Shown here: positions 1 through 46,300 of the stretch, piece by piece
Position numbering within the stretch: position 1 is the first letter of the stretch
Layout: every line of letters begins with the position of its first letter
NCBI GenBank assembly: GCA_025602915.1
Contig: JAHLJZ010000018.1
Location: forward strand, 62,001-126,000
DNA: 64,000 nt
From: Paraphysoderma sedebokerense
Lineage: Eukaryota; Blastocladiomycota; Physodermatomycetes; Physodermatales; Physodermataceae
Direction: 5' to 3'
The notes under the pieces: generated by a model
What the model saw: the letters and a program-made list of their open reading frames with translations, nothing else
The model's database searches: none
Told to the model about the DNA's origin: nothing
Made by a program: the position numbers and the translations under genes

Positions 1-45
1 GTTCTCTGCATACTTACACTCTATGCTTCTTTACCACCCATGCAG

Positions 46-2566
46 ACGGCAACCGCATCGTCCGGAGTTCCTGCCGTTGTCGGTTCCGTTGAACAACGAA
101 AGGTCCGCGGAGGAATTGAGTACAAGCGAGACCCGAAAGTGAAAGTATTACCAAAGCAAGGTCAACGAAATGTACTGGTTACTAGCGCCTTGCCCTATGT
201 GAATAATGAACCTCATCTGGGCAACATCATTGGTTGTGTGCTTTCGGCCGACGCATTCGCCAGGTACCTTTCAATACGAATCTCTCCATAAATCACACCA
301 AATTCTGAATATTACTTTTCTCGTAGATTCGGTCGATTACGAGGATACAATGTATTGTATGTCTGTGGAACTGATGAGTATGGTACTGCTACGGAAACAA
401 AGGCCTTAGAGGAGAAAATTTCTTGCCAAGCGCTGTGTGACAAATATCATGCCCTTCACAAGGGTATTTATGAATACTTTAGTATTGATTTTGATTATTT
501 TGGAAGAACGACAACGGAATGGCAGACAAAGTAAGGATTTCGTTAACTGGAAGAACGGGGGATGCATCACTCTAACCGGGCTCTTTATTTACAAAGAATC
601 GCTCAGGATATATTTAACAAACTGAACGCTAACAATTATGCCTTTGAACAATCCATGACTCAGTTATTTTGCGAAACCTGTCAGCGGTAAGACCCTTCGC
701 TTCTGGTTGGTTTTGGGACGAACTCGATTCATTGAAATTCTGACTTGAACGTACGAATTTATTTAAATTGAAAAGGTTTTTAGCTGATCGATACGTCGAA
801 GGAACTTGTCCATTTTGTGGGTACGAAGATGCTCGTGGAGATCAATGTGACGCTTGCCAAAAATTACTGAATGCGGTTGACTTAATCAACCCACGCTGTA
901 AACTCGACAGCACCCGACCGGTCACAAAAGAGAGCTCACATATGTTTTTGGATTTACCGAAATTACAGGATAAATGTGAAAATTTTGTTAAAACTAATAG
1001 CCAGAAAGGTATGTTTTCGTGTTGATGTTTCACAATGAAGTGCTGTCCTGATATATTTGTTTCCAGGCAAATGGTCTTCAAATTCCATCTCTATAACAAA
1101 TGGTTGGTTAAAGGAAGGTTTAAAACCGCGTTGTATTACTCGTGATTTGAAATGGGGAACACCTGTCCCCTTAGAATCTATGAAGAATAAAGTGTTCTAC
1201 GTCTGGTTTGATGCTCCTATTGGGTATGCTCTTCAAAAGTCGTTTTCAAATATAGAACCATGTATTGATCCAACATTTCTATCAGTTACCTTTCCATTAC
1301 TGCGAACTACACCGATAAATGGGAATTATGGTGGAAGAATCCAAAGAATGTTGATCTTTATCAATTTATGGGCAAAGACAATATTCCCTTCCATACAGTC
1401 ATTTTCCCTTCGTCTTTGCTTGGAAGCGGGGACGACTATACTTTATTGCATCATGTCAGTACAACAGGTGAGCAATCCACATGCATTGTATACAAAATGG
1501 TCATTTCGACTCACCAATATCCTTTCTAGAATACCTCAACTACGAAAGCGGCAAGTTCTCCAAATCCCGCAAGACTGGCGTCTTTGGATCTAATGTTAAA
1601 GATACCGGCATTCCAGTCGACGTTTGGAGATACTATTTATTCATCAACCGTCCGGAAAGCAACGATTCTGCGTTTTCTTGGAAAGATTTCATCTCTCGTA
1701 ACAATAATGAATTATTAGCCAATCTCGGTAACTTTGTTAACCGTGTTCTCAAATTTTTGGCCTCACCCAAATACCAGTCCACTGTCCCGAAATACGAGGA
1801 GAACGATCCCGCTGATGAAGGTTTCAAAAACGATATCAATGAGCTACTCAAAAATTACATTGACGCTTTCGAAAATGTTAAGCTACGCTTAGCACTACAA
1901 ATCGCCATGTCTATTTCAGCCCGAGGAAATCAATATCTTCAAGATAATAAACTCGATAACTCCCTTTTCGTTTCTAATCCCCAGAGGTGTAACAATGTCA
2001 TTGCAAACGCCATTAACCTAGTTTACCTTCTGGCTCCTATATTCTATCCGTTCATGCCCAATACCGCCGATGGAATCTGCAGGCAGTTGAATGTACCTAT
2101 GCGAAAACTATGTGAGAAATGGGAATATGGCGTCGACGAAGGGCATGTCATCGGCAAGCCGGATTATTTGTTTAAGAGGATTGAAGAAAAGATGGAAGAT
2201 GTGTACAGGGTGAAGTATGCTGGAACGAGCGCCGGTGGTGCTCCTGATGCCAAAAAGGTCGAGAACGGTGCGGCGGCAGCGACAAACGGTGCCGCCAAAC
2301 CGGATGGCAAGAAGTCGAAACGCGGTGGTGCTAGTTCTAAGAAAGCGGCCGCCCCCGATCCTGTAAAGATATTGGAATCTTTCAAAGGTACAGTTCCTGC
2401 TGATGTTCTGGAACTCAAAAAGAAAGTCGAAGTGCAAGGTGAACTTATTCGAAATATGAAAGCGGAAAAGGCCGATGCCGGGAAAATCAAAGGCGAAGTT
2501 GAATTTCTGTTGAAGTTGAAAGGAGCGTTGGGAGAAGCCGTGAACAAATTGGTTGCCTCTAATTAA
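46..2566 (+). CDS. MARS1: Methionyl-tRNA synthetase, cytosolic (left copy, 5' end outside window)
   Basis: Seven exons: 46-263, 327-530, 597-686, 776-1008, 1067-1223, 1286-1467 and 1530-2566. All junctions are GT-AG and the frame closes exactly. This part carries the HIGH-class motif HLGN, the zinc-knuckle cysteines (CPFCG and CDACQ), the KFSKS signature for the KMSKS loop and a C-terminal WHEP-type helical hairpin after a Lys/Ala-rich linker. The ATG at 40 is not a start: it lies at the end of an intron, and the two upstream exons are seen in the right copy (26722-27396). It is identical to that copy where both exist. Confidence 0.95.
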
Positions 2567-2808
2567 GCACTTCTGTCAATGGAAATATAGGATTGTAGAA
2601 CAGAATTGGTCTTGATGACGAGACAGTATTGTGATATAATTTTTATAAATAGATAGAGTGAATCGAGAGGAAAGAAAAGAAAGAATAAAAGATGATTTTT
2701 TTGTGATTCTGAAGAATGACTTGGCGAGAATATTTCCCTTCTGAACGCGGCATCTGACTTTGAAAGTCGACATCCATCAGAATAGGTCCATAGTAATCTT
2801 CATAAAGA

Positions 2809-5054
2809 ATGTCATCACATCGGCAATCTCATTACGCTATATTTATATCGGCCGCGGTATTGCGTCTCTGCATATTCTTATTCACAGACACAACCTGGGC
2901 AATCGATCGGGTTGAATTGTCAACTCCAGTGACCTCGTTTAAAAGATGTACGATTTCATCACTCTTTGCTGTTGTCTTTTCCGAAGTGAAACAGACCTCT
3001 TATTAACTATATGAATGTTAATATCTTTTCTCTTGCTGTAACTTAAATTCATGACAATCCGGCTTTCAATCCTCATCGTCGTGAACAAAAACAAAAACCG
3101 TAAACAAATCGTGCTAACAGTGAAGGAAGGGCTATACCTCTATGAATCTAATATATCAGTATACGACAATAATGTGTTTCACCAGGTACCGTCCCTGTTT
3201 ATTACATATCCGATCTCATTAGTTCAGATATCTGACAAAGTTTTTGGTCCATTATGTCACTTTGCTGCCGTCCCAAATCACTCCAGCCTCCACTGTTGCT
3301 GCCATTCTTTCAACTACTTTATTCGCCATTTTCTGGTACGATGAATTCAAGAGTGAGAGAATTATTCTTACAGATAGTATACATTATATGTGACTTGTTA
3401 ATTGGGTGGTGCTTGATTCAAATTGGAAATGAAAAAGGCAGTATTGACGGAACCATCAAAGTCCGTGATTCCGTTCGCAAAGAGGCTTTACAAGATGAAA
3501 GTGACTACGAAGACAATAGCGAGAACGAATCGAATCCGGAAAGCGATGACGATTCAAAGCCGCTGATGCAGAAAGAGAAGAAAATTCGCGACCGACAGCA
3601 GAAGAGGACTGAAGGCGTCGGTCTTACTGCGTTTAAGGGAGAATGGGATATTCAAGTGAATGAGCGGATCGTTCTATTTCTGTATCCTTTATTCGAAATA
3701 CTTGATAATACTCTTATGAATTGCTCGTTTCTCCTTAACGAATTGACTGCTTCCTTGAACGCGCCGTATTAACTCATCAGATACCTTTTCAACCCATTGA
3801 CAATTCTCTCGTGTATATCTCAAAATACCAATATATTTACATCGTTGGCGACAGTATTTGGAGTATATGCTGCTACACGAGGTAGAAAGTTTATTCGCTT
3901 TTTGTGGTATTTGGTAAAATATTGATCTATTTCGCGCGCACTCAGGACGTCTGATACAATCGTCAATGTCGATTGCTGCTGCATCATACCTAGGAGTGTA
4001 TCCTGTTATGTACATATCCCCCGTGATACTGATTTTGGCCGAAACTCTCAGTAAGAAGAACACAGATAAGGTTGGTCGGAAGTTGTTGCGGTCTCTATAA
4101 TGGCGAATAACCCATTGTAATGTATCGCATCTAGGTTCAATCACTTATTGGTGTAGGAATGAAAGTTACAATTAGCACATTATTGTGGATCTCAGCTTTT
4201 CTTTTCTTGTCATTTTTGATGGTGGATGAATCTGTTGACGAGTTCATTAAGTGCTTGAAATCGGTGTACGGAACTATGTATGTTACATTGTCTTGCTTCG
4301 TGTTGAGAAGGGTCCCACTAACGAAGTGCCTTCATTTTTTGGTGGTAGTTTGTTAGTTAGTGACTTGCGACCGAATATTGGGTTATGGTGGTACCTGTTT
4401 ATCGAAATCTTTGAACACTTCCGGAACTTTTTCCTCTTTGTATTCCAATTCCATCTGTTTAGTTACGTCGTCCCCTTTTCTATTCGGTTCAAGTGCGTAC
4501 ACTTTCCGTTATGGTTCCTTACCAGTCCTAGCTTATGATAAATTTGTCTTACCTTCACTTATTGGATGACGAATAGATCGCATCCATTATTTATAGTATA
4601 CCTACTGTCAGGTGTAATCGCAACTTTCAAGTCTTATCCAAGTGTAGGAGATATTGCGTTGGTTTGGGGTTTCTTGAGTTTGTTTCCCGAAATATTTAAG
4701 TGTAAGTTGACTTTATACCTTCATACTCGTCTGTTCTGATAATCGTTTCAATCACTAACTGTTTCGTCGTTGTGTTCAACGTTTGCTATAAAAATATAAG
4801 ACATGAGATACTCGTACCTTTCCTCGAGTATCTTCATCTACACTTGTTTTCTTTCTCCGTTGTTTTACCATTTATGGCTGTATACTGGATCCGGCAATGC
4901 CAATTTCTTTTACGCTATTACCTTGGTGATTGGGCTAGGAAACGTGTTAGTGTTAACAGATAGCGTGTTCGCCTTTAGAAGACGATTGTTCGATATCCAA
5001 CACGCCGGAAGAGCTGGAAACGAACAAGAAGCAGAAGTGGTTCAGGTTTATTAG
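2809..5054 (+). CDS. PIGU: GPI transamidase subunit PIG-U/CDC91 (left copy)
   Basis: Multi-exon gene for a polytopic ER membrane subunit of the GPI transamidase, which attaches GPI anchors to proteins. Recognised from the family pattern in order: VELSTPVTSFKR, then (after an intron 2948-3120) LKEGLYLYESNISVYDNNVFHQ-like sequence, FNPLTILSCIS, YLGVYPVMYISP, DLRPNIGLWWY with EIFEHF, YPSVGDIAL, and the C-terminal GSGNANFFYAITL. Human PIGU has the same blocks in the same order. An acidic, Ser/Asp/Glu-rich insert (about 3440-3610) sits in a loop after the second helix region and is unusually long. The first ATG with a hydrophobic helix is taken as start. It follows MetRS in the same direction with a 242-bp gap and is tail-to-tail with TRDMT1. 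Confidence 0.94.
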
Positions 5055-5226
5055 GTGGGGTGAATAATAAAGCGTCACTAAACGATTGCCTGTATTCCCG
5101 CCTAAGGCGTGAAATGAGGGGTAATGTACTGGTAACAAAGTAGTGATAAATTTGTTGAGTACAAATAAAAACGAATTGACTGCTATGATTCTGTACAGTT
5201 ATCAGATTAAATCAACTGTCATTACA

Positions 5227-7143
5227 TTAATTTCCAATATCGCTAACCATATACCGTATCAATTCTGAAACTACATATACATTAATACTATTACCCAACA
5301 ATCTATATTGCTGCTTTAACGTCGTAATCTCGGGAAACGAAAATGAAGATGGAAAATGTAACAGATTTGATATTTCGCGCGGGGTAAAATATCGCATTTG
5401 TAATGCGGAGAGTGGGTTGTTTGGTAAAGATGGATTAGTTGTAGATCCTTGTGTAGAGGTATCCTTAGTAGAGTCTGCCGAGGACGAAGTTGCCGGTGAA
5501 AAAGTCACAGAGGCAGCGGGTGCTTCGGTAGCTGATATCGGATCTAGGAGAACTCGATGCTTCGATTTTGGATGTGGCAAAATTCTGAAGTTATTGTTTA
5601 AATGCGGGAAATGTATTCGGCGTAGGTTAAAGTATTCCGTCCATATTGGTGAAACCTAGGAGATCAGAAGAATATAAGTTATAAATCTTGTAATCCATAA
5701 TTACAAGAAGTTTGGTTCAACTATGATAAAACACATACATCAACGTCTTCAGTTAGCTGCAACATTGAACCGGTTGCTTCGACATAATGATAGTATCCTT
5801 TGGTAAAGCAACATGAAGCAGATGAGGACGGCGTGACAATATCTGTCCCAATGACAAGTTAAAACCTCTTACAGTCACAACTTACGAAAAAGAATATGAA
5901 ATAGGTTCAAAATCAATTTATCCTACCAAATATTGGAGCAAACTTCCACAACACTTTATCCGGCACATTTGCCACAGCAGTCATATTTTCTGAGCTCTGC
6001 AGATACTCATTAATAGATTTCTGGACGACCGTAGTTCGATTAGGGCTAGGTATATCACATTGAATTCCCACCGCTGTGTGATTAAAGGATAATGGTGATA
6101 GTTTTGCGAGAAGGTAATAGCGTAGCCTCGAGTTCGGTATTCCGAATTGATATGGGTTTAGGTGAAATTCTTGGTAACTATAATTTAATTTTGATAACTG
6201 CGATAGCAAAAATTCATGTGTATCGGATTCATCAAATCCTTTGACGTTCTAGATATATATTTTCCACGATCACAATAATATCAGAGTGATAACTAATCAT
6301 TAGCCGTTTCCGTCCACATCGATTAACGAAAGCATTATTTCAAGAAGCTTAAGTAGCGAATTTGAACCAAACCTCGATTAAAATGTATTTAGGTTTATTT
6401 TCTAACGACGGTAACACGGTATCCATTAAATAGATGAAACTTTTAGCTCTAGAGTCCTTTGATCCCTCTTGTTTGGAACATTTTTGTCGACTGTAAGGTT
6501 GACAAGGCGGGGACATTGTCCATAGATCTGCACGATACTTGTTGAATTTCGAGACTGGAATAGATTCAATAAGAGACTATGGCAACATAGCAACATTTTG
6601 AAATTTTTCAGTCTGTGGCCTGATGAGTTTTGTTGCAAGCGATAGAAAAATAGACACACCTGAGTTATTCTCTCTCTGCCAAAGTTATGCGCTATTAATT
6701 AGGTCAGAAGATAAATCAAAGCAATAATAAAAAGACATGGAATAAACTGATTAGACTGATGGTCGTTGATGAAGTGGCAAATGTGGAAAAATCATTTGAT
6801 TTACCATAGACGTTGTTAGCGATATCATTGACTTCGAATGCCTGCACAACTTCAAAATCTGGAACAACGTCATCACATAATAAAGGAAATAACCAGTTTT
6901 AGCATTTATTCGGTGTAATTAAAGATACCCACAATCCAAGTTAAAGAGAGATTACAATTGAAATGAATTATTCACGAACCAATTTTTGAAGTCGATAATG
7001 CACAATGCTAAACGGAGGTTGAAAAGGGTTAATCCGAGAATATGAAATCTACTATTAAAGGAGGTCGCAGGAGGTCCCGCCAGGAAGATATTTACCATTC
7101 CTCCAATACCGCTATAAAATTCTAACACCCTCAATTTTTCCAT
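5227..7143 (-). CDS. TRDMT1: tRNA (cytosine-38-C5) methyltransferase DNMT2 (left copy)
   Basis: Multi-exon DNMT2 family gene; enzymes of this family methylate C38 of tRNA-Asp. The start exon (7143 downward) reads [16 protein letters not shown], the SAM-binding motif I. Later exons give [11 protein letters not shown], the catalytic motif [14 protein letters not shown] (around 6500), [20 protein letters not shown] (motif VIII region, around 6140) and the family-specific CFTKGY block (around 5805), followed by EATGSMLQ. The C-terminal motifs IX/X read [13 protein letters not shown] and RLLGNSINV. The catalytic Cys is present, so the enzyme should be active. Between the CFT block and motif IX lies an extra low-complexity segment of roughly 80-90 residues, rich in Ser, Thr, Ala and Pro, absent from animal DNMT2. 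A CACGTG box lies 64 bp upstream of the ATG. Confidence 0.94.
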
Positions 7144-7206
7144 GACTCTGATTTATTAATTCGAACTGACCATGGGTGTCGGTACTTCAGACATCTTGTT
7201 TATTCT

Positions 7207-7212
7207 CACGTG
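7207..7212. promoter_or_regulatory. CACGTG box upstream of TRDMT1
   Basis: 64 bp before the TRDMT1 ATG; repeated at 34638-34643. One of five such boxes in unique sequence that sit 64-101 bp before start codons. Confidence 0.4.
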
Positions 7213-7249
7213 CAAATAAATATAATAAATTTAGTTTTACGACATAAGC

Positions 7250-8629
<1,380 letters not shown>

Positions 8630-8692
8630 TTCGACGAGCAATGATTTCCTTACATTCAGTCAGTGTAATGGAGTAGCCAGTTGTATTTAATG

Positions 8693-8698
8693 CACGTG
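8693..8698. promoter_or_regulatory. CACGTG box upstream of DHPS
   Basis: 64 bp before the DHPS ATG, the same spacing as at TRDMT1; repeated at 36124-36129. Confidence 0.4.
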
Positions 8699-8854
8699 AC
8701 GAGTTGCTGGGACGACGTTCTGCTTCCAATCTTTCGCGTCCTACTTGACAGCAGTTTGCTCACTTATACCCGATATGCACCAGAAAAATTTAGGCTTATG
8801 CCAATATATTCGATGTAACAAACATTTAGGGTAACATTTCTTAGACATAAAATT

Positions 8855-11610
8855 TCACCGGGGAGCAGACGGTTCTGCGCGCTTGAATTCATAGAAATGA
8901 GGTCTATTGAGAAATATTGGAAAATATTGTCAAATTAGATGGAGGAGATTTTTCTGATATAAATAAAAGAAACGTACGCTAGTTCACTTAGCCATTCTTC
9001 TTCCACTGCCATCACCTCTTTCATAAACTTTTTTGTGCTTTCTACAATTTCATGGAACACGACACATTTTGGAGTCCGTTTAAATAAGACACTATTTGGA
9101 TGTGCCCAAACTGTTTCGCCACCTCTAATCAGCTTGTAACTTCCGTCCATTTGAAGTATAGCAGCATGAGGAAAATATCCAGACACTATAGCTTTGCGAA
9201 TGGCAATTGTGTCATTCGTCGACGTTTTAGTCGGAAGTTTGAAGTGAGAGAGATGGCTGAGAAGGTATTGACGAATTTGGTGGGCACGTTGAAGGGATTT
9301 ATTGTTGAGAAAATGGAGGTGACACCACCTAGGCGAAAGTTTTCCAAGTTTCGTATAAGCTAGGTATACTATAGAGCTTATTAGTCTCCGCTTTTCAATA
9401 AACGGGAGGTAAGACACACAAAACCATTTAGATATGTCAGATGGTCTCCTTCTAAGACGGCAAACTTCAGTTTTTCTGTCTCGGCATCTATGCGCTTCTC
9501 TCTCGGAGAAAGGAATACGTTCTAATAATGACATGAATTGAATACACACACAAGACAGGCGAATATAGTAAACCATTACCTCGACTGAGAGCATTGCTAC
9601 GATTGTCACAACCTCTTGAACGCATCCAAATTCGACAGCGGCAAACAACTAAACAGGAGAAGATTTGTGAGGATTAACAAGAGTAGAATATTAGAGATGC
9701 ACAATACGTACGACTTTGGCTAAAAGTGGTTCTACGGGCATTTCGGCCATGCGCAATCCTTTCGGAATTGTCAAAGACCCATATTCGTCAATAGCATCCC
9801 AAGCGTATAGCAATTCTAGAGCTCGCTCCATGGAAAGACTGCTCGGCGGGTCAACCCAATCCCAACGTATCACATTATCGATACCAAGCGCCTTGAGTTG
9901 GAGAACAACCGTTGAGAGATTTGTGCGTTGGATTTCAGGCATCGTAGTCGCGGGAAGTGTAGAATATAAATCTGAAGGATATAGACGGTAGCATTTTCCT
10001 GGCCGGACTCGACCGGCTCGACCTAGAATCACCATTAACAATCATCATTTAGTCACTTTTGACTATTTAAAACGTTACCTGCTCGTTGAGTTGCACTGGA
10101 TTGCGACGCAGGGGTGACAACGAGAGTTGAAAGATTTGTAATGGGATTATAGGTGCGAATCTGAGAATTATGGTTAACGAGTGCACTTGAAAATAAGCAG
10201 AATCATATCAATCTCACCTTGACAAATCCGCAATCGATGACATAAACGATTCCTTCAATTGTAATTGATGCCTCCGCAATATTTGTCGCGACGACCACTT
10301 TCCTTGTTCCTCGGGGAGTCGGTTCAAATATTTTCATTTGTTGCTCCGAAGACATCCCAGCGTATAACGGCAGCGCAAGAAGCTTGAAAGGCGAATTTAA
10401 CGATCTACACGTAATATCAGTATTTCTCAATCATTTGTAGCTAAAGAGAGGAGCACCAACCTTTGACGGTTCTTCAATCCAGAGACCACTTTATCAATTT
10501 CTTCTCGTCCCGTAAGAAAGACTAAAATATCCCCAGCATCCTCGCGCTCATGAATAGTGGCTGCCACATTGATAGCCTCTTCGACGTAATCCTGACAAGG
10601 CTCGATCTGATAATGAATATCCACTGGAAACATACGACCTTCTAAGGTCATCAAGGTCACTGGCTCTTTTCCATCGTAACCCTTCACATCTTTAAAATAT
10701 TGAGCAAATTTTTCAGCATCCAAAGTTGCACTAGCCACGATTAAACGTAAATCCGGCCGTTTGCGCATAATTTTCTTAATCAATCCCAATAACAAGTCAG
10801 TGTAAACAGATCTTTCGTGTGCTTCGTCGATCATTATCACACTATACTTAGATAGCAGCGGGTCAGACAAAGTTTCTCTGAATAAAGTGCCATCGGTCGT
10901 ATATTTGATTCGAGTGTCGGCAGAGGATTTATCGTCGAACCGAATTGAATATCCGACCTAGATCATCAGGTCAACAACAATGAAAATGTTTACTTTAGCC
11001 CAATCTTTCAATGGCCAGCATACCTCCTCCCCCAATTGACAACTTCTTTCTTCTGCCACCCTACTGGCAATACTGGTTGCCGCAACTCTTCTCGGTTGGG
11101 TGCAAACAACAGTTCGTCCGCCTTCACTCCAACCAACTTCGTGAAGGTACTGAGGAATTTGTGTCGTTTTGCCTGAACCGGTCTGACCAATAATAACTGT
11201 AACTGGATGATTTTCAACTAAATAGAGGATTTGATTTCCTATAACCAGAAAATCCGATGTCAGAACGTCTAAACTAACCCCGCCAACCAAGCACTGCAAT
11301 TTCAAGATCATCAAAGAATTGAAATGATCTTGACGTACTATGTTTGTAAATAGGCAATCGAAGCCTCTGCTGGCTTAACGGCAATCCAGAGGCCTCACTA
11401 CTATATGCATTGAATGTGGCGATCACTAGATCATCCTCCTCGGCCGTCGTCGCTCGCAGGCCGACAGGTCTAAGAACATTAGAACCTATGAACCAAAATT
11501 TGCGCCGAGAATTGATGAGTGAATGTCCATAAATATTTCATTAAACCATAATTTTGACTACTAAAAATAACATACCTGGGGCTACAGTCCCCGGTTTCCA
11601 GAATGCCATG
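8855..11610 (-). CDS. DHX35: DEAH-box RNA helicase DHX35 (left copy)
   Basis: ATP-dependent RNA helicase of the spliceosome-associated DEAH family. The start exon reads [12 protein letters not shown], matching the FWRPGT opening of human DHX35. Helicase motifs follow in order: GQTGSGKTT (motif I, about 11190), TQPRRVAA (Ia), DEAH (about 10830), SAT (about 10733), [10 protein letters not shown] (V) and [10 protein letters not shown] (VI). Next come the winged-helix/ratchet part ([11 protein letters not shown]) and the OB-fold region (VSGYFPHAA), ending [16 protein letters not shown]. The last exon is short: the splice at the ELA codon brings in 8904-8855, as in human DHX35 (ELAPHFY). DHX35 rather than Prp43/DHX15 is supported by the N-terminus and by [15 protein letters not shown]. 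Confidence 0.92.
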
Positions 11611-11970
11611 GCTAGAAAGAGCGGTGTGGTTAGCAGTAGGTGGTCAAAATTGCGAAATTCCACGGCCGCGGACTTGGGTCAGACGCAGAATCGTGGTCAC
11701 AACCGTCTCTGTATACGTTGAAATATGTGGCCGACAATGATAGCATGTACCATTCTTTAAGATGGCGAAGAGCACTTAGCAACTCGTACAATTGATTGGT
11801 GACTACGGTATGTGTTCAAGATAAGACATGATTGATACATGAATGGAGCGATCGACAATGGAAGGTAAAAGTTCAAAAAATGCTCTGATTTATTGAACAT
11901 ATAACTTATTCAAATTATCATGCCAGCACTAAGACCATGCTCACAACCACTGGCATCAAGATATTTGTAT
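11611..11970. other. Intergenic gap, DHX35 promoter / GH47 3' flank
   Basis: 360 bp between the 3' end of the GH47 gene and the DHX35 start. I see no gene, RNA or strong motif in it. The same holds for the copy at 39042-39401. Confidence 0.6.
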
Positions 11971-14799
<2,829 letters not shown>

Positions 14800-15351
14800 C
14801 CTCCAGTGTCAATTAAGGCCAAGATTGGAAACGTCTTTCTTATACTACCGAGAAACAAGGTTGACAACTGTAACGATGACACAAGCAGATAAGGGGGGAT
14901 GAATTCAGTTGTACTGCAATATTAAAATAGAACTTGAGTGGAATGCAGTAGGAATAGGTTATGGAGCATTGGTCATGCGAATTGAAGTCGGGGCGGGGAG
15001 ACAACTCCCACATCCACCATTTCACAGGGAAATCTTGTCCACCTCAAATATATCGGCAAATGGCGAGAGGATCTAAAATTCCAATCGTTTGTATTATCAG
15101 GCAATATTCCAGAACACTTCCACAGATTCCGCCGGAGAGCCTTCAACAGAAATGTCCGAGAATCTGGAACGAACAGTTGCCCGAATTCGGGGATGCAATC
15201 AAGCTGCGAGTAACATAGATTTTCAATTTTTAACGGGACCCAAAACTGGGATTACTATTGATATTTATGATAATCTATGACATATGCGGAACAGAATTTT
15301 ACATAGTCGATATGCAAAGTAATTTCAGGTGTGTCACCATAATGTACAATC
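14800..15351. other. Intergenic region between GH47 and dsRBD genes
   Basis: 552 bp upstream of the GH47 start and downstream of the dsRBD gene. The only candidate inside it is the tiny plus-strand ORF at 15060-15218, listed separately. The rest shows nothing recognisable. Copy at 42231-42782. Confidence 0.6.
15060..15218 (+). CDS. Possible very small gene, unrecognised (left copy)
   Basis: An ATG in good context (gcaaATGG) opens MARGSKIPI. A 39-nt GT-AG intron (15087-15125) could be removed to give IPPESLQQKCPRIWN and a stop at 15216-15218, for about 39 residues. The putative intron is a multiple of three and stop-free, so the unspliced form (52 residues) is also open. The composition looks protein-like, but I do not recognise a family. 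It lies in the promoter side of GH47 on the opposite strand and could be chance. Confidence 0.25.
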   Translation: MARGSKIPIVCIIRQYSRTLPQIPPESLQQKCPRIWNEQLPEFGDAIKLRVT

Positions 15352-26520: not shown

Positions 26521-26721
26521 ATAATTGGTTTTACTTAATCAGTGCGACCTTGTCTGCCAATGTCACCAATTCAAAGTGCTCGGACTTGAGCGCACCTTGT
26601 ACGATGAGAAGAAGGAAAGTCACGTGCGGTTGCTATGGCCGTTGTCAGGGAATTTTCACGACGCAACCGGCCGTGTTAAGAGTCATCTCATTCCGCACAA
26701 ATCCATATTCAAATCTTCGAT
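26521..26721. promoter_or_regulatory. Bidirectional promoter MetRS / PTRHD1 with CACGTG box
   Basis: 201 bp separate the two start codons. CACGTG at 26621-26626 sits almost in the centre, 96 bp before the MetRS ATG and about 100 bp before the PTRHD1 ATG. Such a palindrome is the core site of bHLH factors like Cbf1. Confidence 0.5.
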
Positions 26722-29700: not shown

Positions 29701-29997
29701 GCGGCGGCAGCGACAAACGGTGCCGCCAAACCGGATGGCAAGAAGTCGAAACGCGGTGGTGCTAGTTCTAAGAAAGCGGCCGCCCCCGATCCTGTAAAGA
29801 TATTGGAATCTTTCAAAGGTACAGTTCCTGCTGATGTTCTGGAACTCAAAAAGAAAGTCGAAGTGCAAGGTGAACTTATTCGAAATATGAAAGCGGAAAA
29901 GGCCGATGCCGGGAAAATCAAAGGCGAAGTTGAATTTCTGTTGAAGTTGAAAGGAGCGTTGGGAGAAGCCGTGAACAAATTGGTTGCCTCTAATTAA
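26722..29997 (+). CDS. MARS1: Methionyl-tRNA synthetase, cytosolic, complete (right copy)
   Basis: Charges tRNA-Met for cytosolic initiation and elongation. Exons: 26722-26963, 27030-27396, 27477-27694, 27758-27961, 28028-28117, 28207-28439, 28498-28654, 28717-28898 and 28961-29997. All join GT-AG and total 2730 nt, 909 residues, close to the 900 of human MARS1. Order of domains: N-terminal GST-like domain (first about 200 residues, containing [11 protein letters not shown]), class Ia catalytic core with HLGN, zinc knuckle (CPFCG, CDACQ), [11 protein letters not shown] split by an intron, KFSKS (KMSKS loop), alpha-helical anticodon-binding domain, a Lys/Ala-rich linker, and a WHEP-type hairpin ([19 protein letters not shown]). 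GST-like and WHEP parts bind tRNA or partner proteins in multi-synthetase complexes. This is the only complete copy in the window. Confidence 0.97.
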
Positions 29998-30239
29998 GCA
30001 CTTCTGTCAATGGAAATATAGGATTGTAGAACAGAATTGGTCTTGATGACGAGACAGTATTGTGATATAATTTTTATAAATAGATAGAGTGAATCGAGAG
30101 GAAAGAAAAGAAAGAATAAAAGATGATTTTTTTGTGATTCTGAAGAATGACTTGGCGAGAATATTTCCCTTCTGAACGCGGCATCTGACTTTGAAAGTCG
30201 ACATCCATCAGAATAGGTCCATAGTAATCTTCATAAAGA

Positions 30240-32485
30240 ATGTCATCACATCGGCAATCTCATTACGCTATATTTATATCGGCCGCGGTATTGCGTCTCT
30301 GCATATTCTTATTCACAGACACAACCTGGGCAATCGATCGGGTTGAATTGTCAACTCCAGTGACCTCGTTTAAAAGATGTACGATTTCATCACTCTTTGC
30401 TGTTGTCTTTTCCGAAGTGAAACAGACCTCTTATTAACTATATGAATGTTAATATCTTTTCTCTTGCTGTAACTTAAATTCATGACAATCCGGCTTTCAA
30501 TCCTCATCGTCGTGAACAAAAACAAAAACCGTAAACAAATCGTGCTAACAGTGAAGGAAGGGCTATACCTCTATGAATCTAATATATCAGTATACGACAA
30601 TAATGTGTTTCACCAGGTACCGTCCCTGTTTATTACATATCCGATCTCATTAGTTCAGATATCTGACAAAGTTTTTGGTCCATTATGTCACTTTGCTGCC
30701 GTCCCAAATCACTCCAGCCTCCACTGTTGCTGCCATTCTTTCAACTACTTTATTCGCCATTTTCTGGTACGATGAATTCAAGAGTGAGAGAATTATTCTT
30801 ACAGATAGTATACATTATATGTGACTTGTTAATTGGGTGGTGCTTGATTCAAATTGGAAATGAAAAAGGCAGTATTGACGGAACCATCAAAGTCCGTGAT
30901 TCCGTTCGCAAAGAGGCTTTACAAGATGAAAGTGACTACGAAGACAATAGCGAGAACGAATCGAATCCGGAAAGCGATGACGATTCAAAGCCGCTGATGC
31001 AGAAAGAGAAGAAAATTCGCGACCGACAGCAGAAGAGGACTGAAGGCGTCGGTCTTACTGCGTTTAAGGGAGAATGGGATATTCAAGTGAATGAGCGGAT
31101 CGTTCTATTTCTGTATCCTTTATTCGAAATACTTGATAATACTCTTATGAATTGCTCGTTTCTCCTTAACGAATTGACTGCTTCCTTGAACGCGCCGTAT
31201 TAACTCATCAGATACCTTTTCAACCCATTGACAATTCTCTCGTGTATATCTCAAAATACCAATATATTTACATCGTTGGCGACAGTATTTGGAGTATATG
31301 CTGCTACACGAGGTAGAAAGTTTATTCGCTTTTTGTGGTATTTGGTAAAATATTGATCTATTTCGCGCGCACTCAGGACGTCTGATACAATCGTCAATGT
31401 CGATTGCTGCTGCATCATACCTAGGAGTGTATCCTGTTATGTACATATCCCCCGTGATACTGATTTTGGCCGAAACTCTCAGTAAGAAGAACACAGATAA
31501 GGTTGGTCGGAAGTTGTTGCGGTCTCTATAATGGCGAATAACCCATTGTAATGTATCGCATCTAGGTTCAATCACTTATTGGTGTAGGAATGAAAGTTAC
31601 AATTAGCACATTATTGTGGATCTCAGCTTTTCTTTTCTTGTCATTTTTGATGGTGGATGAATCTGTTGACGAGTTCATTAAGTGCTTGAAATCGGTGTAC
31701 GGAACTATGTATGTTACATTGTCTTGCTTCGTGTTGAGAAGGGTCCCACTAACGAAGTGCCTTCATTTTTTGGTGGTAGTTTGTTAGTTAGTGACTTGCG
31801 ACCGAATATTGGGTTATGGTGGTACCTGTTTATCGAAATCTTTGAACACTTCCGGAACTTTTTCCTCTTTGTATTCCAATTCCATCTGTTTAGTTACGTC
31901 GTCCCCTTTTCTATTCGGTTCAAGTGCGTACACTTTCCGTTATGGTTCCTTACCAGTCCTAGCTTATGATAAATTTGTCTTACCTTCACTTATTGGATGA
32001 CGAATAGATCGCATCCATTATTTATAGTATACCTACTGTCAGGTGTAATCGCAACTTTCAAGTCTTATCCAAGTGTAGGAGATATTGCGTTGGTTTGGGG
32101 TTTCTTGAGTTTGTTTCCCGAAATATTTAAGTGTAAGTTGACTTTATACCTTCATACTCGTCTGTTCTGATAATCGTTTCAATCACTAACTGTTTCGTCG
32201 TTGTGTTCAACGTTTGCTATAAAAATATAAGACATGAGATACTCGTACCTTTCCTCGAGTATCTTCATCTACACTTGTTTTCTTTCTCCGTTGTTTTACC
32301 ATTTATGGCTGTATACTGGATCCGGCAATGCCAATTTCTTTTACGCTATTACCTTGGTGATTGGGCTAGGAAACGTGTTAGTGTTAACAGATAGCGTGTT
32401 CGCCTTTAGAAGACGATTGTTCGATATCCAACACGCCGGAAGAGCTGGAAACGAACAAGAAGCAGAAGTGGTTCAGGTTTATTAG
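30240..32485 (+). CDS. PIGU: GPI transamidase subunit PIG-U (right copy)
   Basis: Identical in exon layout and sequence to 2809-5054, where domains are described. Both copies are intact, so the dosage of this transamidase subunit would be doubled without its partners (PIGK, PIGT, PIGS, GPAA1), none of which lie in the window. Confidence 0.94.
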
Positions 32486-32657
32486 GTGGGGTGAATAATA
32501 AAGCGTCACTAAACGATTGCCTGTATTCCCGCCTAAGGCGTGAAATGAGGGGTAATGTACTGGTAACAAAGTAGTGATAAATTTGTTGAGTACAAATAAA
32601 AACGAATTGACTGCTATGATTCTGTACAGTTATCAGATTAAATCAACTGTCATTACA

Positions 32658-34574
32658 TTAATTTCCAATATCGCTAACCATATACCGTATCAATTCTGAA
32701 ACTACATATACATTAATACTATTACCCAACAATCTATATTGCTGCTTTAACGTCGTAATCTCGGGAAACGAAAATGAAGATGGAAAATGTAACAGATTTG
32801 ATATTTCGCGCGGGGTAAAATATCGCATTTGTAATGCGGAGAGTGGGTTGTTTGGTAAAGATGGATTAGTTGTAGATCCTTGTGTAGAGGTATCCTTAGT
32901 AGAGTCTGCCGAGGACGAAGTTGCCGGTGAAAAAGTCACAGAGGCAGCGGGTGCTTCGGTAGCTGATATCGGATCTAGGAGAACTCGATGCTTCGATTTT
33001 GGATGTGGCAAAATTCTGAAGTTATTGTTTAAATGCGGGAAATGTATTCGGCGTAGGTTAAAGTATTCCGTCCATATTGGTGAAACCTAGGAGATCAGAA
33101 GAATATAAGTTATAAATCTTGTAATCCATAATTACAAGAAGTTTGGTTCAACTATGATAAAACACATACATCAACGTCTTCAGTTAGCTGCAACATTGAA
33201 CCGGTTGCTTCGACATAATGATAGTATCCTTTGGTAAAGCAACATGAAGCAGATGAGGACGGCGTGACAATATCTGTCCCAATGACAAGTTAAAACCTCT
33301 TACAGTCACAACTTACGAAAAAGAATATGAAATAGGTTCAAAATCAATTTATCCTACCAAATATTGGAGCAAACTTCCACAACACTTTATCCGGCACATT
33401 TGCCACAGCAGTCATATTTTCTGAGCTCTGCAGATACTCATTAATAGATTTCTGGACGACCGTAGTTCGATTAGGGCTAGGTATATCACATTGAATTCCC
33501 ACCGCTGTGTGATTAAAGGATAATGGTGATAGTTTTGCGAGAAGGTAATAGCGTAGCCTCGAGTTCGGTATTCCGAATTGATATGGGTTTAGGTGAAATT
33601 CTTGGTAACTATAATTTAATTTTGATAACTGCGATAGCAAAAATTCATGTGTATCGGATTCATCAAATCCTTTGACGTTCTAGATATATATTTTCCACGA
33701 TCACAATAATATCAGAGTGATAACTAATCATTAGCCGTTTCCGTCCACATCGATTAACGAAAGCATTATTTCAAGAAGCTTAAGTAGCGAATTTGAACCA
33801 AACCTCGATTAAAATGTATTTAGGTTTATTTTCTAACGACGGTAACACGGTATCCATTAAATAGATGAAACTTTTAGCTCTAGAGTCCTTTGATCCCTCT
33901 TGTTTGGAACATTTTTGTCGACTGTAAGGTTGACAAGGCGGGGACATTGTCCATAGATCTGCACGATACTTGTTGAATTTCGAGACTGGAATAGATTCAA
34001 TAAGAGACTATGGCAACATAGCAACATTTTGAAATTTTTCAGTCTGTGGCCTGATGAGTTTTGTTGCAAGCGATAGAAAAATAGACACACCTGAGTTATT
34101 CTCTCTCTGCCAAAGTTATGCGCTATTAATTAGGTCAGAAGATAAATCAAAGCAATAATAAAAAGACATGGAATAAACTGATTAGACTGATGGTCGTTGA
34201 TGAAGTGGCAAATGTGGAAAAATCATTTGATTTACCATAGACGTTGTTAGCGATATCATTGACTTCGAATGCCTGCACAACTTCAAAATCTGGAACAACG
34301 TCATCACATAATAAAGGAAATAACCAGTTTTAGCATTTATTCGGTGTAATTAAAGATACCCACAATCCAAGTTAAAGAGAGATTACAATTGAAATGAATT
34401 ATTCACGAACCAATTTTTGAAGTCGATAATGCACAATGCTAAACGGAGGTTGAAAAGGGTTAATCCGAGAATATGAAATCTACTATTAAAGGAGGTCGCA
34501 GGAGGTCCCGCCAGGAAGATATTTACCATTCCTCCAATACCGCTATAAAATTCTAACACCCTCAATTTTTCCAT
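32658..34574 (-). CDS. TRDMT1: tRNA methyltransferase DNMT2 (right copy)
   Basis: Identical to 5227-7143, with the same catalytic PPCQPY and CFTKGY blocks and the same low-complexity insert. CACGTG box at 34638-34643. Confidence 0.94.
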
Positions 34575-34680
34575 GACTCTGATTTATTAATTCGAACTGA
34601 CCATGGGTGTCGGTACTTCAGACATCTTGTTTATTCTCACGTGCAAATAAATATAATAAATTTAGTTTTACGACATAAGC

Positions 34681-36060
<1,380 letters not shown>

Positions 36061-36285
36061 TTCGACGAGCAATGATTTCCTTACATTCAGTCAGTGTAAT
36101 GGAGTAGCCAGTTGTATTTAATGCACGTGACGAGTTGCTGGGACGACGTTCTGCTTCCAATCTTTCGCGTCCTACTTGACAGCAGTTTGCTCACTTATAC
36201 CCGATATGCACCAGAAAAATTTAGGCTTATGCCAATATATTCGATGTAACAAACATTTAGGGTAACATTTCTTAGACATAAAATT

Positions 36286-39041
36286 TCACCGGGGAGCAGA
36301 CGGTTCTGCGCGCTTGAATTCATAGAAATGAGGTCTATTGAGAAATATTGGAAAATATTGTCAAATTAGATGGAGGAGATTTTTCTGATATAAATAAAAG
36401 AAACGTACGCTAGTTCACTTAGCCATTCTTCTTCCACTGCCATCACCTCTTTCATAAACTTTTTTGTGCTTTCTACAATTTCATGGAACACGACACATTT
36501 TGGAGTCCGTTTAAATAAGACACTATTTGGATGTGCCCAAACTGTTTCGCCACCTCTAATCAGCTTGTAACTTCCGTCCATTTGAAGTATAGCAGCATGA
36601 GGAAAATATCCAGACACTATAGCTTTGCGAATGGCAATTGTGTCATTCGTCGACGTTTTAGTCGGAAGTTTGAAGTGAGAGAGATGGCTGAGAAGGTATT
36701 GACGAATTTGGTGGGCACGTTGAAGGGATTTATTGTTGAGAAAATGGAGGTGACACCACCTAGGCGAAAGTTTTCCAAGTTTCGTATAAGCTAGGTATAC
36801 TATAGAGCTTATTAGTCTCCGCTTTTCAATAAACGGGAGGTAAGACACACAAAACCATTTAGATATGTCAGATGGTCTCCTTCTAAGACGGCAAACTTCA
36901 GTTTTTCTGTCTCGGCATCTATGCGCTTCTCTCTCGGAGAAAGGAATACGTTCTAATAATGACATGAATTGAATACACACACAAGACAGGCGAATATAGT
37001 AAACCATTACCTCGACTGAGAGCATTGCTACGATTGTCACAACCTCTTGAACGCATCCAAATTCGACAGCGGCAAACAACTAAACAGGAGAAGATTTGTG
37101 AGGATTAACAAGAGTAGAATATTAGAGATGCACAATACGTACGACTTTGGCTAAAAGTGGTTCTACGGGCATTTCGGCCATGCGCAATCCTTTCGGAATT
37201 GTCAAAGACCCATATTCGTCAATAGCATCCCAAGCGTATAGCAATTCTAGAGCTCGCTCCATGGAAAGACTGCTCGGCGGGTCAACCCAATCCCAACGTA
37301 TCACATTATCGATACCAAGCGCCTTGAGTTGGAGAACAACCGTTGAGAGATTTGTGCGTTGGATTTCAGGCATCGTAGTCGCGGGAAGTGTAGAATATAA
37401 ATCTGAAGGATATAGACGGTAGCATTTTCCTGGCCGGACTCGACCGGCTCGACCTAGAATCACCATTAACAATCATCATTTAGTCACTTTTGACTATTTA
37501 AAACGTTACCTGCTCGTTGAGTTGCACTGGATTGCGACGCAGGGGTGACAACGAGAGTTGAAAGATTTGTAATGGGATTATAGGTGCGAATCTGAGAATT
37601 ATGGTTAACGAGTGCACTTGAAAATAAGCAGAATCATATCAATCTCACCTTGACAAATCCGCAATCGATGACATAAACGATTCCTTCAATTGTAATTGAT
37701 GCCTCCGCAATATTTGTCGCGACGACCACTTTCCTTGTTCCTCGGGGAGTCGGTTCAAATATTTTCATTTGTTGCTCCGAAGACATCCCAGCGTATAACG
37801 GCAGCGCAAGAAGCTTGAAAGGCGAATTTAACGATCTACACGTAATATCAGTATTTCTCAATCATTTGTAGCTAAAGAGAGGAGCACCAACCTTTGACGG
37901 TTCTTCAATCCAGAGACCACTTTATCAATTTCTTCTCGTCCCGTAAGAAAGACTAAAATATCCCCAGCATCCTCGCGCTCATGAATAGTGGCTGCCACAT
38001 TGATAGCCTCTTCGACGTAATCCTGACAAGGCTCGATCTGATAATGAATATCCACTGGAAACATACGACCTTCTAAGGTCATCAAGGTCACTGGCTCTTT
38101 TCCATCGTAACCCTTCACATCTTTAAAATATTGAGCAAATTTTTCAGCATCCAAAGTTGCACTAGCCACGATTAAACGTAAATCCGGCCGTTTGCGCATA
38201 ATTTTCTTAATCAATCCCAATAACAAGTCAGTGTAAACAGATCTTTCGTGTGCTTCGTCGATCATTATCACACTATACTTAGATAGCAGCGGGTCAGACA
38301 AAGTTTCTCTGAATAAAGTGCCATCGGTCGTATATTTGATTCGAGTGTCGGCAGAGGATTTATCGTCGAACCGAATTGAATATCCGACCTAGATCATCAG
38401 GTCAACAACAATGAAAATGTTTACTTTAGCCCAATCTTTCAATGGCCAGCATACCTCCTCCCCCAATTGACAACTTCTTTCTTCTGCCACCCTACTGGCA
38501 ATACTGGTTGCCGCAACTCTTCTCGGTTGGGTGCAAACAACAGTTCGTCCGCCTTCACTCCAACCAACTTCGTGAAGGTACTGAGGAATTTGTGTCGTTT
38601 TGCCTGAACCGGTCTGACCAATAATAACTGTAACTGGATGATTTTCAACTAAATAGAGGATTTGATTTCCTATAACCAGAAAATCCGATGTCAGAACGTC
38701 TAAACTAACCCCGCCAACCAAGCACTGCAATTTCAAGATCATCAAAGAATTGAAATGATCTTGACGTACTATGTTTGTAAATAGGCAATCGAAGCCTCTG
38801 CTGGCTTAACGGCAATCCAGAGGCCTCACTACTATATGCATTGAATGTGGCGATCACTAGATCATCCTCCTCGGCCGTCGTCGCTCGCAGGCCGACAGGT
38901 CTAAGAACATTAGAACCTATGAACCAAAATTTGCGCCGAGAATTGATGAGTGAATGTCCATAAATATTTCATTAAACCATAATTTTGACTACTAAAAATA
39001 ACATACCTGGGGCTACAGTCCCCGGTTTCCAGAATGCCATG
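36286..39041 (-). CDS. DHX35: DEAH-box RNA helicase DHX35 (right copy)
   Basis: Identical to 8855-11610, including the short last exon. Confidence 0.92.
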
Positions 39042-39401
39042 GCTAGAAAGAGCGGTGTGGTTAGCAGTAGGTGGTCAAAATTGCGAAATTCCACGGCCGC
39101 GGACTTGGGTCAGACGCAGAATCGTGGTCACAACCGTCTCTGTATACGTTGAAATATGTGGCCGACAATGATAGCATGTACCATTCTTTAAGATGGCGAA
39201 GAGCACTTAGCAACTCGTACAATTGATTGGTGACTACGGTATGTGTTCAAGATAAGACATGATTGATACATGAATGGAGCGATCGACAATGGAAGGTAAA
39301 AGTTCAAAAAATGCTCTGATTTATTGAACATATAACTTATTCAAATTATCATGCCAGCACTAAGACCATGCTCACAACCACTGGCATCAAGATATTTGTA
39401 T

Positions 39402-42230
<2,829 letters not shown>

Positions 42231-42490
42231 CCTCCAGTGTCAATTAAGGCCAAGATTGGAAACGTCTTTCTTATACTACCGAGAAACAAGGTTGACAACT
42301 GTAACGATGACACAAGCAGATAAGGGGGGATGAATTCAGTTGTACTGCAATATTAAAATAGAACTTGAGTGGAATGCAGTAGGAATAGGTTATGGAGCAT
42401 TGGTCATGCGAATTGAAGTCGGGGCGGGGAGACAACTCCCACATCCACCATTTCACAGGGAAATCTTGTCCACCTCAAATATATCGGCAA

Positions 42491-42649
42491 ATGGCGAGAG
42501 GATCTAAAATTCCAATCGTTTGTATTATCAGGCAATATTCCAGAACACTTCCACAGATTCCGCCGGAGAGCCTTCAACAGAAATGTCCGAGAATCTGGAA
42601 CGAACAGTTGCCCGAATTCGGGGATGCAATCAAGCTGCGAGTAACATAG
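42491..42649 (+). CDS. Possible very small gene, unrecognised (right copy)
   Basis: Identical to 15060-15218; the same doubts apply. Confidence 0.25.
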   Translation: MARGSKIPIVCIIRQYSRTLPQIPPESLQQKCPRIWNEQLPEFGDAIKLRVT

Positions 42650-42782
42650 ATTTTCAATTTTTAACGGGACCCAAAACTGGGATTACTATTGATATTTATG
42701 ATAATCTATGACATATGCGGAACAGAATTTTACATAGTCGATATGCAAAGTAATTTCAGGTGTGTCACCATAATGTACAATC

Positions 42783-44965
42783 TCATGAGTACTTAAACCC
42801 AAGTCCGTTATCTACAATCCACTTGAACATATCTCCTGCCAAATCATCACGAGCTTTTTCCTCTTGCTCTTCGAAAAACTGGATATCATCAATTATCAAC
42901 AGACCTGGCTCGCGCCGAGAATCTGCTTTACTGGATCCATCCAATGTTAATTGACCTGTAATTCTGGATAATGTATTAGCTCCTAGGTCCCCAGCGAACC
43001 CCAGCTTTTCCGCCGCAGGCTGTTGATAATGTCGTGAGGCGCGAAAACATTTGCGACTCTTCCATTCCTTACCCAGCAGAAGCGACCGCAATCGGAAAGT
43101 GTTCGCAGGATCCGTCGGCAAAGTAATCGTTTCGAATGGAATAGGAGGATAAGACGGTGGGAGTACTTTGAGGAGTTCAGCTAGGTAGGAGTCGATTGGA
43201 ACAGTCGGCAAAGGAGGGTCAGGCAAAGGTATCTGAGCATTGAATTTCCGGTGCTGAAGGTATGGTGACTTCAAGCAAGCCAATGTATCTGTCGCTGGAG
43301 CATTCGCTCGCGGAAGTGGCGGGGAAGAAAATCTATTGGGTTCCTGTGAGGTACTGTGTAGTGATATCGAAGAATGCGGCGAGTTTTGAAAATACGATTT
43401 CGACGTCTGTCCAGACGGCACTGAAACTGAAACTGTCTCGCTTCGAGTCATATCTGGCCGCTTGGACTCAAAAAATATGATGTCCTGGTCTGTTTGTAAT
43501 GGCATTAGCTCCTTCGTCTGTAACCTCCTCTTCGTCTCGTCTTCACCGTGCACGTAAAGCCATTCGTTTATTGTATTGATGGCTATTTTGGCGGCCTCGT
43601 CTACCCCTGAGCGTGGATCAGTGGAAGCCGAAACCCTTAACTTCAATGTGCCTACCGTCAAGAAGACTACAATTCCATCCGTCTCCTCGACTAATTCATA
43701 AGAAGGGGTGGCACCCAGCCGACGAAGAAGCAGTGAGAGTTGATCCTTGTAAGTGGTTTGAATTGAGAGGTTCGCGGTGGATGGATCATGTAACGCAAAG
43801 TCTGGAGAATAAATGTCTTGCTTCGAAGCTAAAGGAGAAGGGTGTAACGTCGGCGTTCTAAACTGGTATGAATCAGGCGATTCTTCCAAACTTATCCTTT
43901 TCGCATTTAATCCATCAGCGACAGCGTCCAGTGGACGTTTACCAGCTCCATGGGAGGGATCGGCTTGGGGATTTGAGAAGGAAGCAGTCGAAAATGTAGA
44001 CGTTGTATCCGACTGTATGGTAGATTCTTGTTTTGAATTCGGTGGGTCCCCAGATGGATGCGGAAGACCAAATTTTTCTTGAGCCGCCTGAAATCCCATC
44101 ACATACTAAGAACGAATATTATGAGTCTTCATGTCACAAGGAACAAGATAAAAACGAATATTATCATACCGTTGCCAGCCAAATCGCACATGCTTCAGCT
44201 TTAGCTTCTTTCTTCGAACCTCGGTATGAAGATTTCGCCGACTGATGTCCTACTGCCACAGAAGCTTGGAATGAGGGTGGCGCTTGTTGCGATTCTTCAA
44301 TGTTAAATACGGGATCAGACAAGCGACTTTCTAAACGTTTAATTAGCATAAATAGCGCTAGAATCACTTGATGTCGATAAAAGAAGTAAACAGCGTACTT
44401 GCACAGTATTCGCAGAGCGCCGAGATGGCGGTAGAGGAAACGGTTTGTCGACGCAAAACTGGGACAGTTGACAAAGGAGATTGAGTGATTTGAGACGGGG
44501 AATCAAATACATTTCCCAGATTTTGGATCTGATTACTTTGAACAGCTTTCAGCGCTGAAGATCATGCATCAAATCACAGCAAAGAATGGAGGATCCAGTT
44601 CAAGAAGAGAATCGGCAGTTAATAAATATGAACATACGGACACAGCAAAGTAAAGCCAATCTGAATTCGAAAGCTCAACTTACCGAGCTCGGAGGCAGCA
44701 TGTTTCGCTTCTTTTTTACTGTGATAGATCGGCTGGACAATAAAGAATTGACCAGCAAAGATGCAAGTGCATCCATAAAGGTTTCCAAGGGTCCGTTTGA
44801 TTTCGGTGAACTCATATTCTGGTTTTTCTACCAATTTTAATTTCATGGAAAGCTAAGTATAGGAGAACATAGAATGAAAACATAAGCCGTGCATAAGCGA
44901 AGGTGCACAGAAAGATTTTTATTTCAAACCTCGACGAGCTTAGATGTAGCGTTAACTCCAGCCAT
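42783..44965 (-). CDS. Protein with three dsRNA-binding domains (right copy)
   Basis: Identical to 15352-17534. Confidence 0.75.
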
Positions 44966-45275
44966 TTTGAGATCGGAGACGGATGGTTGTTGAAAGAGGA
45001 CCACTACTGAGATATCTATCCCACGATGATATCAGCCGAAAATCAATCTTCACAATTTTTCATCAGGCCTTGCGGCTTCGCTAAATGGTAGGTCGGAAGT
45101 ATTAAAGACAGTGAACCTCAGCCACAACAGGGAGCGGGAACCGGCGCATCAGACGACTCACTTCAACCCATATCGCACCACAAAAAAAGTAGCAAGTAAT
45201 CGATTTGAAGTTCCAGTTCTCCAATTTTACCCTATTACAGGAGATTATCAGAAATTCTGGGGAGATTTCAGCTTT

Positions 45276-45482
45276 TTAGAATGTGCGGTGTCGTGATTGA
45301 CCGAAACCGTTAACCTTGACTTCGCCATTGCCAATACTTTTTTCATATGATGAGACACTGAGTACCAAAGATCTTATACCATATATCATTTGATCCGTCA
45401 TGTGGAAAGCACAAAGAGATGCCGACATAGCTATAATCATACTATAATAATTGTATCTACCTTGGCGCGAATTATCACGCAT
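45276..45482 (-). CDS. Possible small single-helix membrane protein (right copy)
   Basis: Identical to 17845-18051. Confidence 0.35.
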   Translation of the reverse strand: MRDNSRQGRYNYYSMIIAMSASLCAFHMTDQMIYGIRSLVLSVSSYEKSIGNGEVKVNGFGQSRHRTF

Positions 45483-45562
45483 TGCCTGACCCAGGTGACC
45501 TTTTCCTGCTGATTGCCTTGGCCGTTCTCTCTTCCCTCCTATTCAATTGAAATCAACAAAGT

Positions 45563-46300
45563 ATGAAGCGACCCAGGACAGAGACAGAGCTCTCTCAGGC
45601 CACTTCGGCAACAGCACCTCCCCGCAAACAAAGCCGTCTTCTGGCCGATCTTGTCCCTGAGAACGTCATCGACCAGCCAAAGGCTTCGGTCATCAAGTTC
45701 GGCCTAAAATCCGTTACAGCTCAGCCGAGCATTCCCCTGACAAGCAATCAAGATGATTTAAACGGAGAGGAAATCGATTCTGATATTGACACTGTGAAGT
45801 ACTACCCTGCTGAATTGACTGAAAGAAGTCAGTTTATCAGTGATAAGACACGGAGAAAAGTTACTCCATTTCAATTCAAGGTATACGATTGCTGTAGACA
45901 GGTCTGTTGCTCCACATCATGAAAAATTGATTGCAATCATTAATTGAAATTTAAATCAAATAGGTGCCAAAAGGGAAGCTAACAACGTATAAAGCAATAT
46001 CGGATTATCTCTCCTCTGCTCCTCGAGCGGTCGGACAAGCTCTGAAAAATAATCCGTTTGCACCATTCATCCCATGCCACAGAGTAGTAGCCAATAACGG
46101 ATATGTCGGCGGATTTTCCGGGTATGTTCTGTATAATCGCTCGGTTCTGATCGCGATGTTGATCCTTTTGAATTAGTCAATGGGGCAGTGGGTGCAAGAT
46201 CCAGTCAAAAAAAGCAAAACTAAAGAAAGAAGGTGTACTGGTCGGCGATGATGGATTTGTGAAGGGTTGGGATATTGTTTTTTGGAATCAGTTCAAGTGA
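45563..46300 (+). CDS. MGMT: O6-methylguanine-DNA methyltransferase, intact
   Basis: Suicide repair protein that moves alkyl groups from O6 of guanine to its own cysteine. Exons 45563-45901, 45964-46121 and 46177-46300 give 206 residues. The first about 110 residues form a basic, nuclear-signal-like N-terminus (MKRPRTETE, PPRKQSRL) and an acidic linker in place of the weakly conserved N-terminal domain. The C-terminal domain starts TPFQFKVYDC and continues VPKGKLTTYKAIS, PRAVGQALKNNPF, then the active site IPCHRV (acceptor Cys, about 46075) and VGGFSG. It ends KKEGV, GFVKGW and FWNQFK. A true methyltransferase rather than an alkyltransferase-like protein, because the Cys is present. The duplication breakpoint (46067) falls eight bases before the acceptor Cys codon region. 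Confidence 0.95.

Follow-up and report, generated by a model that had tools for sequence, protein, structure and literature searches.

Paraphysoderma sedebokerense is an alga-infecting fungus of the Blastocladiomycota, and the alga Haematococcus is described as a host that it infects (PMC11797010). The sequenced strain is probably JEL821, a proteome of which is cited in PMC9224648 with a reference to the JGI portal. The DNA analyzed here, called the window below, is a 64-kb stretch of the genome assembly (27,287,198 bp in 195 contigs) and corresponds to positions 62001-126000 of a contig of 395,994 bp, referred to as C18; positions are those of the window unless the contig is named. Within this region a unit of 27,431 bp is present twice, head to tail. 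The copy that lies wholly inside the window (18636-46066, or C18:80636-108066) contains eight genes with a Pfam match over cut-off, together with at least two unassigned ORFs, and the estimate in the initial annotation that about ten whole genes are doubled is therefore a fair one.

Along this copy, a poly-proline ORF that may or may not be a gene (22959-23468, plus strand; PRIMA1 match below cut-off only) is followed by two ORFs of a PPR-repeat protein (23970-25633, minus strand; PF13041, from a scan covering 23970-25184). The plus strand then carries the exons of a methionyl-tRNA synthetase (27723-29994; PF09334, PF19303 and PF00458) and of PIG-U, a GPI transamidase subunit (30667-31966; PF06728). 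The remaining genes inside the unit are all on the minus strand: exons with a C-5 cytosine methyltransferase domain (32661-34007; PF00145), deoxyhypusine synthase (34750-35749; PF01916), exons of a DEAD/DEAH-type RNA helicase (36369-38805; PF07717, PF21010 and PF04408 over cut-off, PF00270 below it), exons of a GH47 alpha-mannosidase (39405-40601; PF01532), a 289-aa ORF with no Pfam match (41226-42092), and a probable dsRNA-binding-motif gene (42786-44852) that is the second copy of 15355-17421. The ORFs of the last probably form one gene; PF00035 scores 23.1 bits in one of them (cut-off 23) and 17 bits in the next, while the 440-aa ORF has no match. These assignments come from a Pfam scan of 40 ORFs, a subset of all ORFs, of which 37 lie in or overlap the unit. 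A tRNA scan in bacterial mode and an Rfam scan were both empty.

Two smaller repeats were seen in passing. Just ahead of where PIG-U exons are first detected, some 110 bp (30572-30684) are 83-88% alike to positions 11784-11894 of another contig, C2, and are perhaps a small dispersed repeat. Just to the right of the unit, two adjacent single-ORF genes of membrane-protein-like character on the minus strand (47196-48140, which has no Pfam match, and 48590-49585) are 63% identical over 312 positions and constitute an older, diverged tandem gene pair.

Each end of the unit falls within a gene. At the right end, the breakpoint (46066/46067) is spanned by an intact MGMT-like gene with three modelled coding exons (45563-46300, plus strand), whose product includes NNPFAPFIPCHRVVANNGYVGGFSG and retains the sequence PCHRV. 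The breakpoint cuts this gene just upstream of the PCHR motif, the cysteine of which we take to be the alkyl acceptor. At the left end, an intact HMG-box gene lies at the edge of the first unit, outside the window. Its exon ends in CAG and is followed by the splice donor GTAAGC, and the breakpoint falls one base upstream of this donor. A protein search with the long exon of the gene returned no scored relative.

Where the two units meet (18635/18636), the MGMT-like gene runs directly into the HMG-box gene, with no inserted bases and a single base pair (T) that is common to both ends and can be assigned to either side. The MGMT-like copy at this junction (18132-18772, plus strand) has lost its 3' part from the PCHR motif onward; its frame runs from NNPFAP into antisense HMG sequence and then to a stop, giving a product of 192 aa. 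The Pfam score falls from 84.8 bits for the intact protein to 43.9 bits for the chimera, and the domain match reaches profile position 74/81 at C18:107955-108143 versus position 51 at C18:80524-80643. The junction copy of the HMG-box gene (18551-20469, minus strand; these are the bounds of the open frame, with start codon and intron not fixed) has likewise lost its last coding exon and splice donor, and its frame continues for 28 residues antisense into the MGMT-like gene before a stop. This copy matches HMG_box_2 (PF09011) over cut-off and HMG_box (PF00505) just under it. Both boundary genes are thus intact at the outer edges of the repeated region, and a truncated chimera of each is found at the inner junction, which is precisely what a tandem duplication predicts.

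The initial annotation had described the region as an exact tandem duplication whose junction falls between these two genes, and base-by-base comparison bears this out. Positions 1-18636 equal 27432-46067 letter for letter at an offset of 27431. The first base to differ is 18637, and in 500-base bins starting at 19000 the identity drops to 23-35%, the level expected by chance; identity over 27 kb cannot itself be chance. The paired match begins 8,796 bp to the left of the window, at C18:53205, and a comparison of C18:53205-80636 with C18:80636-108067 shows no mismatch in 27,432 paired bases. The first unit therefore occupies C18:53205-80635, of which the right part is window 1-18635 (identical to 27432-46066), and the second occupies C18:80636-108066; the period is 27,431 bp, and the two strings are identical. 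The order along the contig is left flank, unit 1, unit 2, right flank, and the units adjoin in the same orientation between unique flanks, as in a direct tandem segmental duplication. The A-B-A'-C order described earlier from the window thus resolves into two whole head-to-tail units once the sequence to its left is added, and both a left copy of 18637-27431 and an intact HMG-box gene, which had been predicted to lie there, are present.

How many copies does the assembly hold? Two 601-bp probes from inside the unit matched two places each in the 27.3-Mb assembly, and probes across the left and right outer boundaries matched their own place and, in the half common to both, the other copy, with the outer flanks single-copy. 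A junction probe agreed with these results. All of these repeat counts are lower bounds, with 2 of 2 or 3 of 3 candidates scored in the unit and boundary searches. Short probes (601 bp) across the assembly found no third copy of the unit, and the unit and flank probes matched no allelic contig. The deoxyhypusine synthase family has four matches in the assembly, all in the units and two per unit, while the MGMT DNA-binding family has two, which are the two MGMT copies. When C18:1-306000 was compared with itself by BLAST (matches above 150 bp), only two pairs appeared besides the unit, at 83% and 75% identity, and C18:306001-316000, 345001-350000 and 386001-395994 gave no match to it at E 1e-8. 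There are no N bases in these 306,000 contiguous bases, and the junction is gapless. Near the start of the contig, C18:4808-5878 and 10700-11776 form a direct repeat of about 1.1 kb that is 83% identical, and at the start itself (C18:54-181) a 24-bp unit is present in 5.3 exact copies beside CCTAA-rich sequence; this end of the contig is possibly subtelomeric.

The junction has consequences for the public annotation. The public protein BKA69DRAFT_273484, which lacks PCHR, is identical letter for letter to the 192-aa chimera. A protein search with the intact MGMT-like sequence as query placed this protein first and found no identical 206-aa protein among the best 120 of 202 hits. Because of these two results, the annotation seems to hold the chimeric form, with the intact gene either missing there or modelled outside the length range that was searched. 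The MGMT-like gene is the only one detected in the assembly, and users of the proteome may wrongly infer a loss of MGMT-like activity from the truncated protein, when an intact gene lies 27 kb away. For users of the genome more generally, about ten genes look duplicated.

We consider a genuine direct tandem segmental duplication of 27,431 bp, fairly recent and carried by a nuclear contig, to be the best explanation, with a probability of roughly 0.6. The evidence for it is the gapless and base-precise join, the unique flanks, the lack of a haplotype partner and the consistent anatomy of the boundary genes, and it is from this anatomy of the assembled contig that we infer the structure of the chromosome. 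On this explanation, end joining or template switching would have linked two non-homologous breakpoints in unrelated genes that have 0-1 bp in common, recently enough that no substitution has yet accumulated between the units. The outcome would be the doubling of about ten genes and the addition of one truncated MGMT/HMG junction, and each boundary gene would keep an intact copy at its outer edge. The doubled genes are mostly of the housekeeping type, and the putative effect, if any, is extra gene dosage. If real, the duplication would represent a precisely bounded gene-dosage change in an early-diverging fungus, and its junction could inform studies of break repair. We found no report of it in the open-licence literature.

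The sequences at the breakpoints bear on the pathway by which such a join could arise. BLAST between the 4 kb surrounding one breakpoint and the 4 kb surrounding the other gave no direct match; its one hit is an inverted match of 13 bp (E 0.43) that does not touch either exact breakpoint. Within 300 bp, the longest words common to the breakpoints are two 9-mers, and these are out of register. Aligned across the breakpoints, 9/20, 12/30, 15/40 and 19/60 bases match, values reached by 4.9%, 6.3%, 6.8% and 18.8%, respectively, of 20,000 random site pairs, so that the aligned similarity is not convincing. When each 601-bp breakpoint region was searched for repeats of its own, the left one showed two short direct repeats and the right one a 13-nt inverted repeat with 85% complementarity (46001-46013/46044-46056) that ends 10 bp before the breakpoint; this search was internal to each region and has no bearing on homology between the two. 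Unequal crossing-over (NAHR) is unlikely because neither a repeat nor significant homeology pairs the breakpoints, which have 1 bp in common and no direct BLAST match. The join instead has the 0 to few bp of common sequence and the lack of long homology expected from end joining or template switching, and these pathways fit better. A 1-bp junction does not separate nonhomologous end joining (NHEJ) from template switching. Nor does it imply the use of microhomology, considering that at least one common base would be expected in about four of ten random joins. Transposition of the unit as a mobile element was also considered and rejected: inverted words between the first and last 300 bp of the unit are at most 8 long, the direct match between the ends is 1 bp, no transposase or integrase family is among the Pfam matches of the 40 ORFs scanned, and no match in the genes of the unit points to a selfish element.

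What does the perfect identity of the two units say about their age? The initial annotation had argued that the absence of drift means the event is extremely young, is kept uniform by exchange, or is not real. The identity itself stands, and the conclusion drawn from it is too strong, since some 10^5 generations could have passed at the fungus-like mutation rates assumed here. With 2 x 27,431 bp free of any difference, an assumed rate of 3e-10 per base and generation puts the 95% bound on age at about 1.8e5 generations; rates of 1e-9 and 1e-8, likewise assumed, bring it down to 5.5e4 and 5.5e3. Zero differences over 27 kb are thus unremarkable up to about 10^5 generations at the assumed rate of 3e-10. 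A quite different meaning would attach to this number if an assembler had walked one collapsed graph node twice; the copies would then be identical by construction, and zero would be silent on age. Homopolymer errors are unusable as an independent test because there is only one run of 8 or more in the unit.

The last point leads to the explanation that deserves most weight among the alternatives, although we judge it rather doubtful: the junction is real DNA, but the duplication is heterozygous or sub-clonal, or exists as a 27,431-bp circle beside an unduplicated chromosome, and the unit was walked twice by the assembler. The assembly graph would be the same in all such cases, with left flank, unit and right flank in a line and an additional unit-to-unit edge, and one node walked twice would give no mismatches whatever the biology. 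An argument against a chromosomal duplication is that a loop in the assembly graph of a read set would yield an identical contig. With reads of less than 27.4 kb, the assembler would have chosen both the precise number of copies and their perfect identity. There is a report of a true tandem duplication, specific to one allele, inside a single contig (PMC9516828). A short-read assembly of strain AZ_ISR came to 25.43 Mb versus 27.29 Mb here, a gap with many other possible causes; it was made with dipSPAdes, which is designed to assemble polymorphic diploid genomes (PMC9224648). The circular form in particular meets with difficulties. Extrachromosomal circular DNA would yield the same unit-to-unit junction reads, but the sequence gives no sign of a circle: the ends of the unit are not matched by repeats, and no mobile-element family appears among the Pfam matches of the ORFs scanned. 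A circle that was rare in the culture would, in addition, usually not displace the linear path. We regard as improbable the more specific proposal that the junction derives from a stable 27,431-bp extrachromosomal circle, or from a recurrent amplicon of variable copy number, that carries housekeeping genes while the unduplicated chromosome is retained.

It is also unlikely, in our view, that the junction is an assembly artefact, in which a chimeric or mis-overlapped read created the join and the assembler then duplicated the unit. Perfect identity and exactly two copies are what such an error would leave, and the junction is known here from the assembled contig. False duplications from haplotypes and from read errors, in long-read assemblies as well, are documented, with 7 to 24% on one scaffold (PMC9516828). 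The main source of false duplications described there is divergent haplotypes, with gaps between the copies typical, while the copies here adjoin without a gap, do not diverge and have no haplotype counterpart. For one chimeric molecule to be the cause, it would also have to bring together two points separated by 27 kb, in the right order and orientation, and then pass consensus. False duplication of one haplotype was rejected, with 0 differences, 0 N and no allelic contig found with the probes. Finally, an older duplication held identical by gene conversion or unequal exchange would likewise show identity in introns and intergenic DNA, but we give it hardly any credence, since conversion usually leaves divergent margins, while here the match is perfect right out to both ends, those portions of the junction genes that fall within the unit are without decay, and youth is the simpler account.

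The genuine tandem duplication that we favor would be an ordinary kind of event in an unusual fungus, and no new kind of system. It can be compared with segmental duplications in budding yeast, for which one report describes microhomology junctions that create chimeric ORFs (PMC2518615). As in the cases described there, many genes are doubled and chimeric ORFs are formed at the junction; in part of the yeast cases the breakpoints lie outside repeats, and direct tandems are among them. The same report gives 1-4 nt of complementarity as usual at NHEJ junctions, and finds that NHEJ made no contribution to spontaneous duplications in its assay, where junctions outside repeats relied on 5-10 bp or on microsatellites, a longer match than the single base pair found here. 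Unlike the yeast cases, the Paraphysoderma unit is 27 kb with 1 bp in common and no known selection, and its pathway is deduced from the assembled bases. There is a likeness to false duplications as well, in that genes are doubled on one contig of a draft assembly, but those described are mostly diverged haplotypes and typically gapped (PMC9516828), whereas the unit here is exact and gapless, with no haplotype partner in the probe searches. With extrachromosomal circular DNA the likeness would be in the unit-to-unit junction reads; the sequence holds no circle-specific evidence.
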